Origin: Bacteroidales bacterium
GTDB taxonomy: Bacteria > Bacteroidota > Bacteroidia > Bacteroidales > UBA932
Direction of reading: 5' to 3'
DNA length: 39,069 nucleotides
NCBI GenBank assembly: GCA_030695025.1
Contig: JAUYTX010000001.1
Location: 1-39,069, forward strand
Part shown: one piece after another, positions 2,147 through 12,020 of the stretch
Layout of the letters: every line of letters starts with the position of its first letter
Position numbering within the stretch: position 1 is the stretch's first letter
The notes under the pieces: model-generated
What the model was told of the DNA's origin: nothing
Databases searched by the model: none
What the model saw: only the letters and a program-made list of their open reading frames with translations
Position numbers and translations under genes: made by a program

Positions 2147-3697
2147 TTATTTTAATTTAGTCCAGGCTCCAAAGTTTTCGGTATAACCGAAGTTTATGTC
2201 AAGTCCTGTACACTTTCCAGTCTTTTTATCAATTTCGAATGTTACTTTAAATTCATTTCCTCCCATTCTGAAGGCATACTCATTGCCATTGCTGTGTGAC
2301 AATTTGCTCTTCCAGCCCTTTGGGCCAATCTTTATATATAAATCACCGTTCTCAATGGTAACATAAGCCTTTCCAAACAGAGCGCCCTTATCGTAAATAC
2401 CCGGGAGCAATTTGGTGTCGGGAGCAGGTAGCTTCTCCTTTTCTGCCTCTTTTTTCATTGAAGTAAGCTGGCTCTTTTTTGAAGAGGCAAGCCATTCAGC
2501 ATAAAACTGAGTGTTGTAGTCCTTATCAGGAAAACCTTTGTAGAGGTCAATCATCCTCCTCATTATCGCATAGCGCGGAAAAGCAGGAGCTTCTGAGTTT
2601 ACCAGAATCATGATTCCAAGGTCGTATTCCGGCACATATGCACATAAAGCGGTAAAGCCCCAAGTAGTCCCCGTATGGAAAATCACCCTGTAACGGTTGT
2701 TCTGCTCAACAAACCAGCAATGGCCATAGAGAGTAATTCTGGATGAATCCTGAGAGGTGATGGTTTGCCCCCTTCTGATATACTCCATCTGCTCTTTGGC
2801 AACAACCTGTTTACCATCATATAAACCCTTGTTTATGTGAAAAAGGAGATACTTGGCCATATCATTTACATTAGAGCTTACAGAACCCGCAGGACCAATT
2901 ACTGTGAGCCAGTGCAAAGCCTGCTCGTCGCCATAAAGCGGATTAACCGCAACAGAATCAACCCATGTGGTGTCTGAAAGCATCTTTCCCCTCTTGTAAA
3001 CAAACTCGTGAGGAGTAGCAACATTCTCTGCAACAGCAAATTCCTCCCCCTCTACCCGACTTGAGGTCATTCCCAGAGGAGCAAAAATTCTCTCCCTCAC
3101 ATTATCTTCCCAACTCTTTCCGGTAAGTTTTTCAATAATTTTTGATGCAATTATGAATGTAATATTGTTGTATTCGTATGATCCTCTAAGGCTGTATTTA
3201 GGCTTAAGCAGAGGAAGCATATTATAAATGTCCTCCCTTTCGTAGCCCATATTTGGAATATAGGTGCCAAGCTGCCCCTGAAGGCCGGTTCGGTGAGTCA
3301 TAATATCTTTCACCTGCAGATTTGACTCCACCCATTTATCGTACATCTTAAAATCAGGCAGTATGTTTTTTACAGTATCTTCCCACTTAACCTTACCCTC
3401 CTCAACCAGTGAAGCCATAACAGCTGCAGTGAACGATTTTGAAACCGATCCTATCTGAAAAAGAGTGTTGGCATCAATCTTTTCGTCCTTCCCAAGCTCC
3501 TTCACCCCAAACCCATTCGAATAGATCATCTTTCCATCTTTAACCACAGAAATGGCCATGCCCGGTATTTGCCACTGTGCCTGAACCTTTTTGGCGTACT
3601 CTTCGGTTTTTCGAATGATCGCCTCATTGTCCTGCGAAAACACAGGAGCTGCAATAATTAAAAAAAGGGGCAGTAATGTCCCGATAAGTTTTTTCAT
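2147..3697 (-). CDS. Periplasmic beta-lactamase-fold serine hydrolase with C-terminal DUF3471-like domain
   Basis: A 516-residue exported protein. I place the start at the ATG at 3697, since it opens directly with MKKLIG, a hydrophobic core and a VFSQ signal-peptidase site; an upstream start would add a polar tail before the signal. The beta-lactamase/class C PBP fold is shown by the S84-V-S-K87 nucleophile motif, the Y176-N-N motif in the YxN position and HTGTT in place of KTG. The last roughly 100 residues form a separate beta-rich DUF3471-like domain. Such proteins are esterases, D-aminopeptidases or peptidases as often as beta-lactamases. The next gene, 24 bases on, is the AbgT transporter, so hydrolysis of an amide or peptide outside followed by uptake is a reasonable guess. 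Confidence 0.88.
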   Translation of the reverse strand: MKKLIGTLLPLFLIIAAPVFSQDNEAIIRKTEEYAKKVQAQWQIPGMAISVVKDGKMIYSNGFGVKELGKDEKIDANTLFQIGSVSKSFTAAVMASLVEEGKVKWEDTVKNILPDFKMYDKWVESNLQVKDIMTHRTGLQGQLGTYIPNMGYEREDIYNMLPLLKPKYSLRGSYEYNNITFIIASKIIEKLTGKSWEDNVRERIFAPLGMTSSRVEGEEFAVAENVATPHEFVYKRGKMLSDTTWVDSVAVNPLYGDEQALHWLTVIGPAGSVSSNVNDMAKYLLFHINKGLYDGKQVVAKEQMEYIRRGQTITSQDSSRITLYGHCWFVEQNNRYRVIFHTGTTWGFTALCAYVPEYDLGIMILVNSEAPAFPRYAIMRRMIDLYKGFPDKDYNTQFYAEWLASSKKSQLTSMKKEAEKEKLPAPDTKLLPGIYDKGALFGKAYVTIENGDLYIKIGPKGWKSKLSHSNGNEYAFRMGGNEFKVTFEIDKKTGKCTGLDINFGYTENFGAWTKLK

Positions 3698-9598: not shown

Positions 9599-10885
9599 TT
9601 ACAGGTAGTTTTCGTATGCACCCATGTCTAACAGGCCGTGACCGGAGAGGTTGAAGAGGATTACTTCGCTCTTTCCGTTCTCTTTTGCTTTGAGTGCCTC
9701 CCTGATGGTTGCTGCAATGGCGTGAGTTGACTCGGGTGCAGGAATTATGCCCTCTGTTTTTGCAAAGAGGAGGCCGGCTTTAAAGGTCTCTTCCTGTTCA
9801 ATAGCACATGAATTAATATAGCCATCTGCCTTTAGCTGGCTTACAAGCTGGCCGCCGCCGTGGTAGCGAAGGCCGGCTGCGTGAATCTGCTCGGGTTGAA
9901 AATCGTGACCGAGGGTGTACATGGGTATGAGGGGGGTCATGCCGGCCGTGTCGCCAAAGTCGTATTCCAGTTTGCCACGTGTAAGTTTAGGGCATGCGGC
10001 GGGCTCTGCTGCTATAAATTCGGTTGGAGTACCATCTGTGAGTCGGTGTCTGAGAAAAGGAAAAGATATTCCTGAGAAGTTTGAACCACCACCAAAACAG
10101 GCTATTACCTTATCAGGGTATTCACCTGCCATTGCCATCTGCTTCTCTGCCTCAAGGCCGATGATTGTCTGGTGCAAAAGCACGTGATTTAGAACGCTTC
10201 CCAAAGTGTATCGTGTATTTGGAGTAGTTACCGCCATCTCTACCGCCTCAGAGATTGCCATTCCAAGGCTTCCTCCACAATCCGGGTCCTGAGCCAGCAC
10301 CTTTCTTCCATACTCGGTAAGGTTAGTTGGTGATGGATGAACCTGCCCGCCGTAACTGTTAATAACTATCTTTCTGTACGGTTTCTGCTCAAAGCTTCGC
10401 TTGACCATAAATACAACCAGATCAATCCCGAAATACTGGCAAGCAATACTCATCGCCGAGCCCCACTGGCCTGCTCCGGTTTCTGTGGTTAACTTTTTGA
10501 TTCCCTGTTTATTGTTGTAATATGCCTGTGCAAGTGCTGTGTTGAGCTTGTGCGACCCAACCGGGCTTACACTTTCGTTTTTGAAAAAGATTTTGGCAGG
10601 TGTGTCAAGCGCTTTTTCGAGGGCTGTGGCTCTGACCAGAGGTGTGGGTCTGTATATTTTGTATAAATTAATTACCTCTTCGGGGATATCTATCCATCGC
10701 TCAGCTGAAAATTCCTGTTCTACCAAATCTTTTGCAAACAGCCCCTCCATTTCATGGGGTTGCAGAGGTTCTCTGGTTTGTGGGTTTAACAGTGGTTTGG
10801 GTCTGTTGGGCATATCTGCCACAATGTTATACCACCGTTGAGGAATTTCGCTTTCGCTTAACTGGAACTTTTTGGTTGTCTTCAT
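9599..10885 (-). CDS. trpB: Tryptophan synthase beta chain, TrpB2 type, stand-alone
   Basis: 428 residues, longer than ordinary TrpB (about 400) and matching the TrpB2 group: the N-terminal extension with IPQRWYNIVADMP, PTPLVRA, the PLP lysine K113 in GSHKLNTA, the ETGAGQWGSA motif carrying the catalytic Glu, and the phosphate-binding loop CFGGGSNFSG. It is a PLP enzyme of the cytoplasm that joins indole to serine (or a serine derivative) to make tryptophan. No trpA or other trp gene is nearby, so it probably works on free indole. It is preceded by a Trp-rich leader peptide, antiterminator and terminator, so its expression should rise when charged tRNA-Trp is scarce. The start ATG at 10885 lies 25 bases after the U tract of the leader terminator. 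Confidence 0.95.
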   Translation of the reverse strand: MKTTKKFQLSESEIPQRWYNIVADMPNRPKPLLNPQTREPLQPHEMEGLFAKDLVEQEFSAERWIDIPEEVINLYKIYRPTPLVRATALEKALDTPAKIFFKNESVSPVGSHKLNTALAQAYYNNKQGIKKLTTETGAGQWGSAMSIACQYFGIDLVVFMVKRSFEQKPYRKIVINSYGGQVHPSPTNLTEYGRKVLAQDPDCGGSLGMAISEAVEMAVTTPNTRYTLGSVLNHVLLHQTIIGLEAEKQMAMAGEYPDKVIACFGGGSNFSGISFPFLRHRLTDGTPTEFIAAEPAACPKLTRGKLEYDFGDTAGMTPLIPMYTLGHDFQPEQIHAAGLRYHGGGQLVSQLKADGYINSCAIEQEETFKAGLLFAKTEGIIPAPESTHAIAATIREALKAKENGKSEVILFNLSGHGLLDMGAYENYL

Positions 10886-10910: not shown

Positions 10911-10945
10911 AAAAAAAGAGGCCCGATGCGTGAGCATCGGACCTC
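10911..10945 (-). terminator. trp attenuator terminator (3:4 hairpin)
   Basis: On the minus strand GAGGTCCGATGC (10945-10934) pairs with GCATCGGGCCTC (10929-10918) around the loop TCAC: 12 pairs including one G-U, followed at once by seven T (10917-10911). This is a textbook intrinsic terminator, placed between the leader peptide stop and the trpB2 start, where it would stop transcription before the gene. Confidence 0.93.
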
Positions 10946-11007
10946 TGTTATGGTTAAATTATAATTAATCTAATTCTGGCTTAACATACATATAAAGGCG
11001 TACTCAC
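10930..11007 (-). promoter_or_regulatory. trp attenuator antiterminator (2:3 pairing)
   Basis: The RNA segment GUGAGUACGCCUUU (11007-10994) can pair without gaps on its own side to AGAGGUCCGAUGCUCAC (10946-10930): GUGAGUA with UGCUCAC, CG with CG, CCUUU with AGAGG, leaving a one-base and a two-base bulge. That is 14 pairs, two of them G-U, and it uses the whole 5' arm and loop of the terminator, so the two structures exclude each other. A smaller hairpin (10990-10980 with 10958-10946) fits inside the loop. Upstream, ACAAAU (11041-11036) can pair with AUUUGU (11011-11006) around the Trp codons, a candidate 1:2 hairpin. Pairings were found by eye; energies were not computed. Confidence 0.8.
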
Positions 11008-11061
11008 AAATCTATTTGACTTGTGCCACCACCACATTTGTATGTTCAGATTTCTTTTCAT
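10981..11061 (-). CDS. trpL: Tryptophan leader peptide (26 residues, three consecutive Trp codons)
   Basis: ATG at 11061 to TAA at 10981. The peptide begins MKRNLNIQ and carries MWWWHK at residues 9-14 (TGG codons at 11034-11026), ending in LYVC. Three adjacent Trp in 26 residues is far beyond chance, and the frame lies 13 bases after a TAnnTTTG element. Its job is to sense charged tRNA-Trp: a ribosome stalled on the Trp codons leaves the antiterminator segment at 11007-10994 free, while a ribosome that reaches the stop codon covers it and lets the terminator form. It resembles trpL of enteric bacteria in design, not in sequence; the symbol is used for function only. Confidence 0.92.
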   Translation of the reverse strand: MKRNLNIQMWWWHKSNRFVSTPLYVC

Positions 11062-11073
11062 TGTTTAGCGTGA

Positions 11074-11081
11074 CAAATGTA
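11074..11081 (-). promoter_or_regulatory. -7 element (TACATTTG) for the trp leader-trpB2 unit
   Basis: The minus strand reads TACATTTG, an exact TAnnTTTG, with 12 bases between its G and the leader ATG at 11061. It lies 50 bases beyond the prmC stop, so trpB2 has its own promoter. A -33 TTTG is not evident. Confidence 0.7.
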
Positions 11082-11123: not shown

Positions 11124-12020
11124 TTACTTTTTTATTGCCTTCACAACTCTGTCCTTTCCAAACAGGTCTTTAATTATCTCATTTTCTGAATAATTACCTC
11201 CATTAAAAAGCTCTGATGTTTGCCTTCCGAATTGTTCGTTTATCTCCATAAAAATTGCTCCTGAGGGCTTAAGATGGTTATCTGCAAGAGAGGCCAGTGC
11301 TTTGTAAAAGAGAAGTGGATTGTGATCAGGAACAAAGAGAGCCATGTGAGGTTCATATTCGGTCACATTCGGCCTCATCATTTTTTGCTCAGATTCTGTC
11401 ACATAAGGGGGGTTACTTACAATGAGGTCGAATTGTCCATTCATCGAGACAAATTTATCAGTCAACTCATCAGGGGACTGTTCCTGAGGAGATTTTAGCA
11501 GATCGTATTTGAAAATCAAATGCTGAGAAGAGGGTTTAAGGTTTTCTGTTGTTACCTTAAGTGCTTCTGAGGAGATGTCGCATGCATAAACATTTGCGTT
11601 TGGGAATCTTGCCGAAAGAGCTGTTGCAATACAGCCGGAACCGCAGGCGGCATCCAGGATATTTACCGAAGCATACTGTTTTCCCGAATCTATAAGGTAT
11701 TGCGATGCTGCAAGAACCAGCTCTTCAGTTTCGGGTCTTGGAATCAGGACTCCTTCTCGCACCACTATTTTTAGCCCGCAAAACTCCTGAAATCCAACAA
11801 CGTACTGCAAAGGGCGGGCGGCAGCAAGTTGCTGCAGAGCACTTTCGAGCAGCAGCAGATGTTCCGGAGAAATTGCCCCAAAAGGTTCAATTAACGGTTC
11901 ATACGAGCTAATGCCGCAAAAGTGCTCCAATAGCCTCACGGCTATCGCCCGCCCCTCTTCATTTGGGTAGAGGTGTGACAGACGCACCTTTGTAAGCTCT
12001 ATAAACTCTTTGTAAACCAA
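11124..12020 (-). CDS. prmC: Peptide chain release factor N5-glutamine methyltransferase PrmC
   Basis: 298 residues. The N-terminal helical domain (FIELTKVRLSHLYP ... RLLEHFCGISSYE) and the PRPETEEL linker are typical, followed by a SAM-binding Rossmann domain (ILDAACGSGCIATAL) and the catalytic NPPYV motif that grips the glutamine. It methylates the GGQ glutamine of RF1 and RF2 in the cytoplasm. No in-frame ATG exists between the upstream stop (12041-12039) and deep inside the domain, so translation most likely starts at the TTG at 12020, which gives the normal family N-terminus. It is the last gene of the PBP1A-ddl-phosphoesterase-prmC run, 11 bases after the preceding stop. The TGC in DAACGSG replaces the more common DLGTGSG pattern but is seen in relatives I know of. 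Confidence 0.95.
   Translation of the reverse strand: MVYKEFIELTKVRLSHLYPNEEGRAIAVRLLEHFCGISSYEPLIEPFGAISPEHLLLLESALQQLAAARPLQYVVGFQEFCGLKIVVREGVLIPRPETEELVLAASQYLIDSGKQYASVNILDAACGSGCIATALSARFPNANVYACDISSEALKVTTENLKPSSQHLIFKYDLLKSPQEQSPDELTDKFVSMNGQFDLIVSNPPYVTESEQKMMRPNVTEYEPHMALFVPDHNPLLFYKALASLADNHLKPSGAIFMEINEQFGRQTSELFNGGNYSENEIIKDLFGKDRVVKAIKK

Follow-up and report, generated by a model that had tools for sequence, protein, structure and literature searches.

Organization of the trpB2 locus

The window, by which we mean the whole 39,069-nucleotide stretch of Bacteroidales DNA that was analyzed, carries on its minus strand a trpB2 gene (9599–10885) specifying a TrpB-like PLP enzyme. The product scored 632.7 bits with TIGR01415 (cut-off 518.85) and 699.8 bits with NF009057 (cut-off 366), and its best solved relatives, 6hul, 4qys and 6hte, are named tryptophan synthase beta chain 1 or 2. 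On the side away from the leader, trpB2 adjoins a gene on the opposite strand; upstream, prmC (11124–12020, a profile match) is on the same strand as trpB2 and lies outside the switch. The initial annotation had placed a complete tryptophan attenuator in front of trpB2, and inspection of the sequence together with folding located every one of its elements, on the minus strand, to which all coordinates below refer.

The −7 promoter element, TACATTTG (11074–11081), agrees with TAnnTTTG, the consensus for the Bacteroidetes main sigma factor given in PMC7366714, which also describes short frames resembling leader peptides in B. thetaiotaomicron. Next comes a 26-codon frame, MKRNLNIQMWWWHKSNRFVSTPLYVC, running from the ATG at 11061 to the stop codon at 10983–10981 (10981–11061), with three adjacent Trp codons (WWW), TGGTGGTGG, at 11026–11034. 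The promoter element, the frame and the three consecutive TGG codons are thus as first described. TTTG and the leader ATG are 12 nt apart, and the earlier figure of about nine bases for the leader upstream of the frame is an estimate. The expected number of TGGTGGTGG in the window is 0.14 and the observed number two, the second copy being inside trpB2; TGGTGGTGGCAC is found once in the 2.25-Mb genome, at the leader. The arrangement is that of a short, probably translated frame in which Trp codons adjoin one another, located immediately downstream of a predicted promoter, translation being suggested by the synonymous changes described below and the promoter by its match to consensus. Of 43 distinct leaders, 31 had TAnnTTTG no further than 60 nt ahead of the leader start. 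In three of the leaders (L096, L108 and L013) it lies only 4–6 nt before the start codon, so that the leader peptide may come from a leaderless transcript. L013 is the leader of Bacteroidales bacterium CF, a cultured bacterium.

The 150-nt leader folds with z = −6.7, and none of 200 shuffled sequences folded equally well. An intrinsic terminator (segments 3:4, 10911–10946), recognized by folding and covariation, lies between the leader frame and trpB2. It had been described as a 12-bp helix with seven T; the seven T are at 10917–10911, and the helix, 10946–10917, comes to 13 pairs when pairing of the first T is included. Segment 2 (10994–11008), the 5′ strand of the antiterminator, is within the leader frame, and pairs with segment 3 (10929–10946), made up of the terminator 5′ arm and loop and defined by folding and by the pairing permutations below. 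This antiterminator had been credited with 14 pairs; the pairing is present, and refolding gave 15 (11008–10994 with 10946–10929) at −15.3 kcal/mol, a pairing equalled in 4 of 300 shuffles. Absent from the initial annotation is a protector hairpin (segments 1:2), in which CACAAGUC (11025–11018) pairs with GAUUUGUG (11012–11005) to form the core. In an extension of this hairpin (11050–10975), the codons ahead of WWW pair with the end of the frame, enclosing the Trp codons. The protector is visible both in the minimum-energy fold and in the alignment A1, and it is mutually exclusive with the antiterminator.

Conservation of the leader within the genus

Alignment A1 consists of 19 distinct genus-group leaders, 18 from genomes of the genus plus L014, for which no genus is given; a near copy, L008, was left out of the 20 rows having WWWH. 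Relatives had been proposed as the place to look for the Trp codons and the exclusive pairings, and both were there. TGGTGGTGGCAC is carried by all 19 leaders and WWWH is invariant, the neighbouring codons changing synonymously. The antiterminator keeps its first seven pairs in 19/19, and the protector and terminator covary. For the protector core plus the terminator, both sides had changed in 8 of 21 pairs, the covariation score was reached by none of 500 shuffles, and 92.2% of cells were paired, versus 21–50% when the strands were slid. RNAalifold, unaided, predicted these same two hairpins. The covariation score of the extended protector was also reached by 0/500 shuffles, with 77.9% of cells paired; 12 of its 27 pairs showed both-side changes, a number reached by 24/500 shuffles. 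The antiterminator gave no covariation signal within A1, where 146 of 500 shuffles reached its percentage of paired cells, because its core hardly varies. The protector accounts for the invariant CAC following WWW, which partners the GUG of segment 2; given the footprint we assume, ribosome stalling at WWW would presumably mask this CAC.

The residues preceding WWW are also conserved in A1, with Q at −2 in all 19 leaders, I or T next to it in 19, N at −4 in 16 and L in 13, the codons changing synonymously. Thus LNIQ (window 11038–11049) is kept as amino acids, and it recurs in an Alistipes leader, L066, as FNIQTWWWWH. The nucleotides coding for LNIQ also pair in the extended protector.

R1, a model built from the 19 A1 leaders and matching those by construction, gave matches with E < 1e-18 in 22 of the 25 genus genomes; in one of these, G006, the match and trpB2 are on separate contigs. 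As for the other three genomes, trpB2 is cut at a contig edge in G003 and G012, and G022 has no trpB2. At each of the 21 genus trpB2 loci having upstream sequence on the contig, the leader was found.

Leaders outside the genus

Pairing was studied in 43 of 45 leader rows, two (L021 and L048) being excluded by eye. Outside the genus the peptide context is variable and the Trp codons are retained, numbering two to five per leader in the 43. The antiterminator sequence also differs and the pairing is kept, as in L053, where GTAAACAA pairs with TTGTTTAC, and in L036, where GTGGAG pairs with CTCCAC. For 19 representatives, hand-picked as one per group of like leaders, segment 2 paired with its own partner at a mean of −15.9 kcal/mol versus −10.4 kcal/mol for swapped partners, a value reached in none of 100000 permutations; the own partner was the best in 6 and among the top three in 14, and ranked 4–8 in L016, L036, L050, L086 and L090. 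When every row not belonging to the GTGAGC group was used (23 rows), 0/20000 permutations reached the own pairing. Shuffles of single rows were modest in outcome, with the antiterminator at no more than 15/300 in only 21 of 43 rows, and the pairing was no better than shuffles in L104 (207/300) and L096 (123/300). The antiterminator is exclusive with the terminator, and beyond the genus group it is kept as a pairing. The protector too is weaker over all 43 rows: at least four pairs join segment 2 to the preceding bases in 38, and the protector region was at no more than 10/200 shuffles in only 12. The last Trp codon is 7–19 nt, median 16, from segment 2.

A mechanical detector, calling a short Trp-rich frame followed by a terminator, was applied to 95 distinct trpB2 upstream regions drawn from an 80-genome set and the genus genomes. 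It was positive at 41 of these, as against none of 950 shuffled regions. It was also positive at 13 of 278 other start sites, among which there was no clear non-trp gene: nine were trpB2 with a shifted start, one was a frame overlapping trpB2, and three appeared by eye to be trpB1-like. The remaining 54 trpB2 upstream regions had no detected leader, the detector missing leaders with a single Trp codon (such as L037 and L061). At three Dysgonomonas loci (L020, L025 and L065) the detector was positive before trpB1, identified by eye, with trpB2 further down; no such leader was seen in the Parabacteroides upstream regions inspected.

Given that prmC is upstream on the same strand, ending at 11124, and that a prmC match accompanies 19 of the 43 leader loci, the hairpin could in principle be the prmC terminator, with the Trp-rich frame there by chance. 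We consider this highly improbable. At the other 24 loci, the leader and terminator accompany trpB2 where there is no prmC match in upstream sequence of at least 1252 nt each, or 388 nt in the case of L111; further, chance does not account for Trp codons that are invariant in 19 leaders, nor for a detector that was silent on all 950 shuffles. With leaders lacking prmC in hand, the prmC terminator reading was rejected.

Proposed mechanism

Ribosome-mediated Trp attenuation is a prediction that is well supported by comparison, and we give a probability of about 0.9 that trpB2 is controlled through this leader, acting as a transcription attenuator of four segments in which the ribosome responds to charged tRNA-Trp. 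With plentiful tryptophan, the ribosome would pass WWW and the protector (1:2) would form, making segment 2 unavailable, and the terminator (3:4) would then halt transcription ahead of trpB2. If charged tRNA-Trp runs low, the ribosome would stall at the TGG codons and cover the adjoining CACAAG, and the protector could not form. The freed segment 2 (GUGAG..) would pair with segment 3, the loop and 5′ arm of the terminator (2:3), before synthesis of the 3′ arm is complete, allowing polymerase to read into trpB2. The initial annotation had a ribosome at the stop codon covering 11007–10994; with the footprint size that we take a ribosome to have, such coverage would extend over no more than roughly the 3′ half of segment 2 (11008–10994), and the protector better explains the off state. 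The off state is likelier to be guarded by the protector than by a ribosome at the stop codon.

The alternative folds, whose computation had been suggested earlier, gave the antiterminator as the best fold, for a ribosome placed on the second or third Trp codon, up to the point at which the terminator 3′ arm has 9 of its 13 nt. For a ribosome on the first Trp codon, the antiterminator was displaced at that point, the 149-nt step. Once the leader is complete, the terminator is the more stable structure for each of these positions, ribosome stalling notwithstanding (−28.3 versus about −20.9), so that the decision would have to be kinetic, trapping of the antiterminator being assumed.

Codon sensing is not the only way in which a Trp-rich peptide might act. 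In E. coli, TnaC is a precedent for stalling by a nascent peptide, and LNIQxWWW might similarly stall the ribosome on free tryptophan or indole without being codon-specific. The conservation, in 19 leaders, of the residues before WWW as amino acids with synonymous codons would fit such a switch, as would a target enzyme that handles indole. Against this, leaders with two to five Trp codons fit codon sensing, the peptide context varies outside the genus while the Trp codons stay, and the conservation of LNIQ may be explained by the pairing of the same nucleotides in the extended protector. We judge a nascent-peptide switch very unlikely, though less so than a prmC terminator.

Relationship to known Trp leaders

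Scanning of the window with Rfam found no family at its cut-off. This result bears on whether trpB2 might instead be under a T-box, TRAP or riboswitch type of Trp control, the Trp codons being incidental. T-boxes, TRAP and riboswitches all use a competing terminator and antiterminator, as the trpB2 leader appears to do. The T-box family was, we presume, included in the library scanned, and neither it nor any riboswitch family reached its cut-off; further, the leader is short and has conserved in-frame Trp codons. Such control is, in our estimation, the least probable of the readings, and ribosome-mediated attenuation remains the one that we favor.

The E. coli trp attenuator (RF00513, Trp_leader) has consecutive Trp codons, a protector, an antiterminator and a terminator, and the switch in the window follows the same logic. 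It differs in controlling one gene rather than a pathway, in having segment 2 inside the reading frame, and in having a TAnnTTTG promoter a short way from the start codon; the window scored 15.4 bits with RF00513, whose cut-off is 41. RF01692, Bacteroid-trp, is from the same phylum, has its start and Trp codons in register with those of the window, and also has a long hairpin enclosing the Trp codons. The window's leader is therefore not the first Trp leader for Bacteroidetes. In Table 1 of PMC2864571 the RF01692 entry reads yes for RNA, yes for cis-regulation and no for switch, and according to PMC6414381 Bacteroid-trp precedes the F. psychrophilum trp operon.

RF01692 scored the window at 21.8 bits, far under the cut-off of 49, which was reached by none of 20 relatives' loci. 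In 198 genomes of the order it gave 16 matches at E ≤ 0.001, of which 13 were before trpB1 and none before trpB2; of the others, two were before trpE-like genes (best match TIGR00564, below cut-off) and one was at a contig end. Given these RF01692 loci directly, R1 found 15 of 16 in place at E ≤ 1 (E ≤ 0.02 for 14), missing only L130 at the contig end, whereas in a whole-genome scan with stricter filters (E ≤ 0.01) it recovered only 6 of the 16 RF01692 genomes. R1 matched 47 of the 198 genomes, the window's included. At 29 other R1 loci inspected, BLAST with three reference proteins gave the gene as trpE in 14, trpB1 in 10 and trpB2 in four, with one left unassigned. At E ≤ 0.001, R1 matched 32/198 genomes and RF01692 16/198, the sets overlapping in part and the R1 E-values being rough. 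The window and RF01692 share a layout, and RF01692 loci are recognized by R1, the model of the window's group. Grouping by layout and model recognition, we read these leaders as probably one wide class of Bacteroidales Trp leaders, part of which is held in Rfam.

In 2010 the authors of PMC2965389 wrote of knowing no leader-peptide system outside Proteobacteria and Actinobacteria before their own. Among attenuators of Actinobacteria, PMC1262725 describes a candidate Trp attenuator before a trpB2-named gene, as in the window, for trpB2A of C. diphtheriae; unlike in the window, that trpB2 is alongside trpA and beside a second trp operon. For Chlamydia trachomatis trpRBA, a Trp leader has been proposed for the salvage genes of an auxotroph, the attenuator being predicted only; there TrpR and YtgR also act, and the genes are trpBA, not trpB2 (PMC6504234). 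Our search of the open-access literature, a scope that most subscription papers fall outside, found no description of a leader before this kind of trpB2; for ribosome-mediated attenuation in Bacteroidales it found predictions and no experiment. The kind of switch is known, also within the phylum (RF01692), and what seems to be new is the target, a lone trpB2. With this leader, ribosome-mediated attenuation can be put to a direct test in Bacteroidales.

Tryptophan genes and the likely role of the switch

The genus genomes are 73–99% complete and mostly drafts. trpB2 is present in 24 of the 25, while trpA and trpC were each found in one, G017, with a trpA match below cut-off in G004. G017 is the only genus genome with a trp operon, and the only one in which the TIGR01415 search also matched a canonical-type TrpB (185 bits). 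PRAI (trpF) matches were found in three genomes, G017, G021 and G022. In the window's genome, 91% complete, trpA, trpC and trpF were not found; nor were they found in G010, a single contig of 2657245 bases that has trpB2 and the leader. The window's genome does have a tryptophanase (L145 2178–3557, G000:C14; NF053783 877.6 bits, cut-off 750), before which no leader was seen by eye in the upstream stretch inspected. TIGR02617 matched at more than 500 bits in 22/25 genus genomes, all below its cut-off of 825.8 and not individually checked.

A conserved Trp-codon switch before a lone trpB2 implies that the cell calls on the gene when it runs short of tryptophan, and so links the gene to tryptophan supply. 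As genomes of the genus usually show no tryptophan-forming gene other than trpB2, the switch most likely turns on the reaction indole + serine -> tryptophan, in which phosphoserine may take the place of serine. TrpB2 would probably serve to turn indole into tryptophan under a shortage of charged tRNA-Trp. Formation of tryptophan from indole by TrpB2 was reported for Thermococcus kodakarensis, according to PMC11085991. Pyrococcus horikoshii has trpB2 and no other trp gene, and in 2007 another function “has not been identified yet” (PMC1854888). The gut trp pathway variants that we noted in PMC9026213 include TrpAB-only and do not include lone TrpB2.

Leaders are not confined to genomes lacking the pathway, since trpC is present in some leader-bearing genomes. 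In a comparison of 44 hand-chosen genomes of the 80, those with a multi-Trp leader had trpC in 5 of 18 cases, those without a leader in 17 of 24, and those with a single-Trp leader in one of two (Fisher p = 0.012 for the first two groups, uncorrected for kinship). A more speculative proposal, to which we give somewhat less than an even chance, is a Trp-indole recapture loop, in which cells lacking the pathway and bearing tryptophanase would regain their own or their neighbours' indole through the lone TrpB2 when charged tRNA-Trp drops. If true, this loop would give stand-alone TrpB2 a physiological role across many Bacteroidales.

Other leaders in the genus

Besides the 22 trpB2 leaders, R1 gave 41 weaker rows in the genus, many of them opposite-strand echoes. 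Five weak rows were inspected: one was a trpE leader (G017), one a histidine leader (G005), and three resembled plain terminators, one after a tRNA-like stretch. The G017 leader (L140 4421–4550, plus strand) is a second Trp leader, MSKQLQNNVWWWLTKSQIGFCW, with its own terminator, before trpE, and by eye its antiterminator pair differs, being GGATTC/GAATCC. The histidine leader, MNRFLNIHTLHHHHLSNYLAGVLCYCIFKDS, is followed by a terminator and lies on the minus strand of L184 (G005:C135) at 2932–3090, before genes identified by eye as hisG, hisD and hisC. The genus seems to use the same kind of switch for histidine too.
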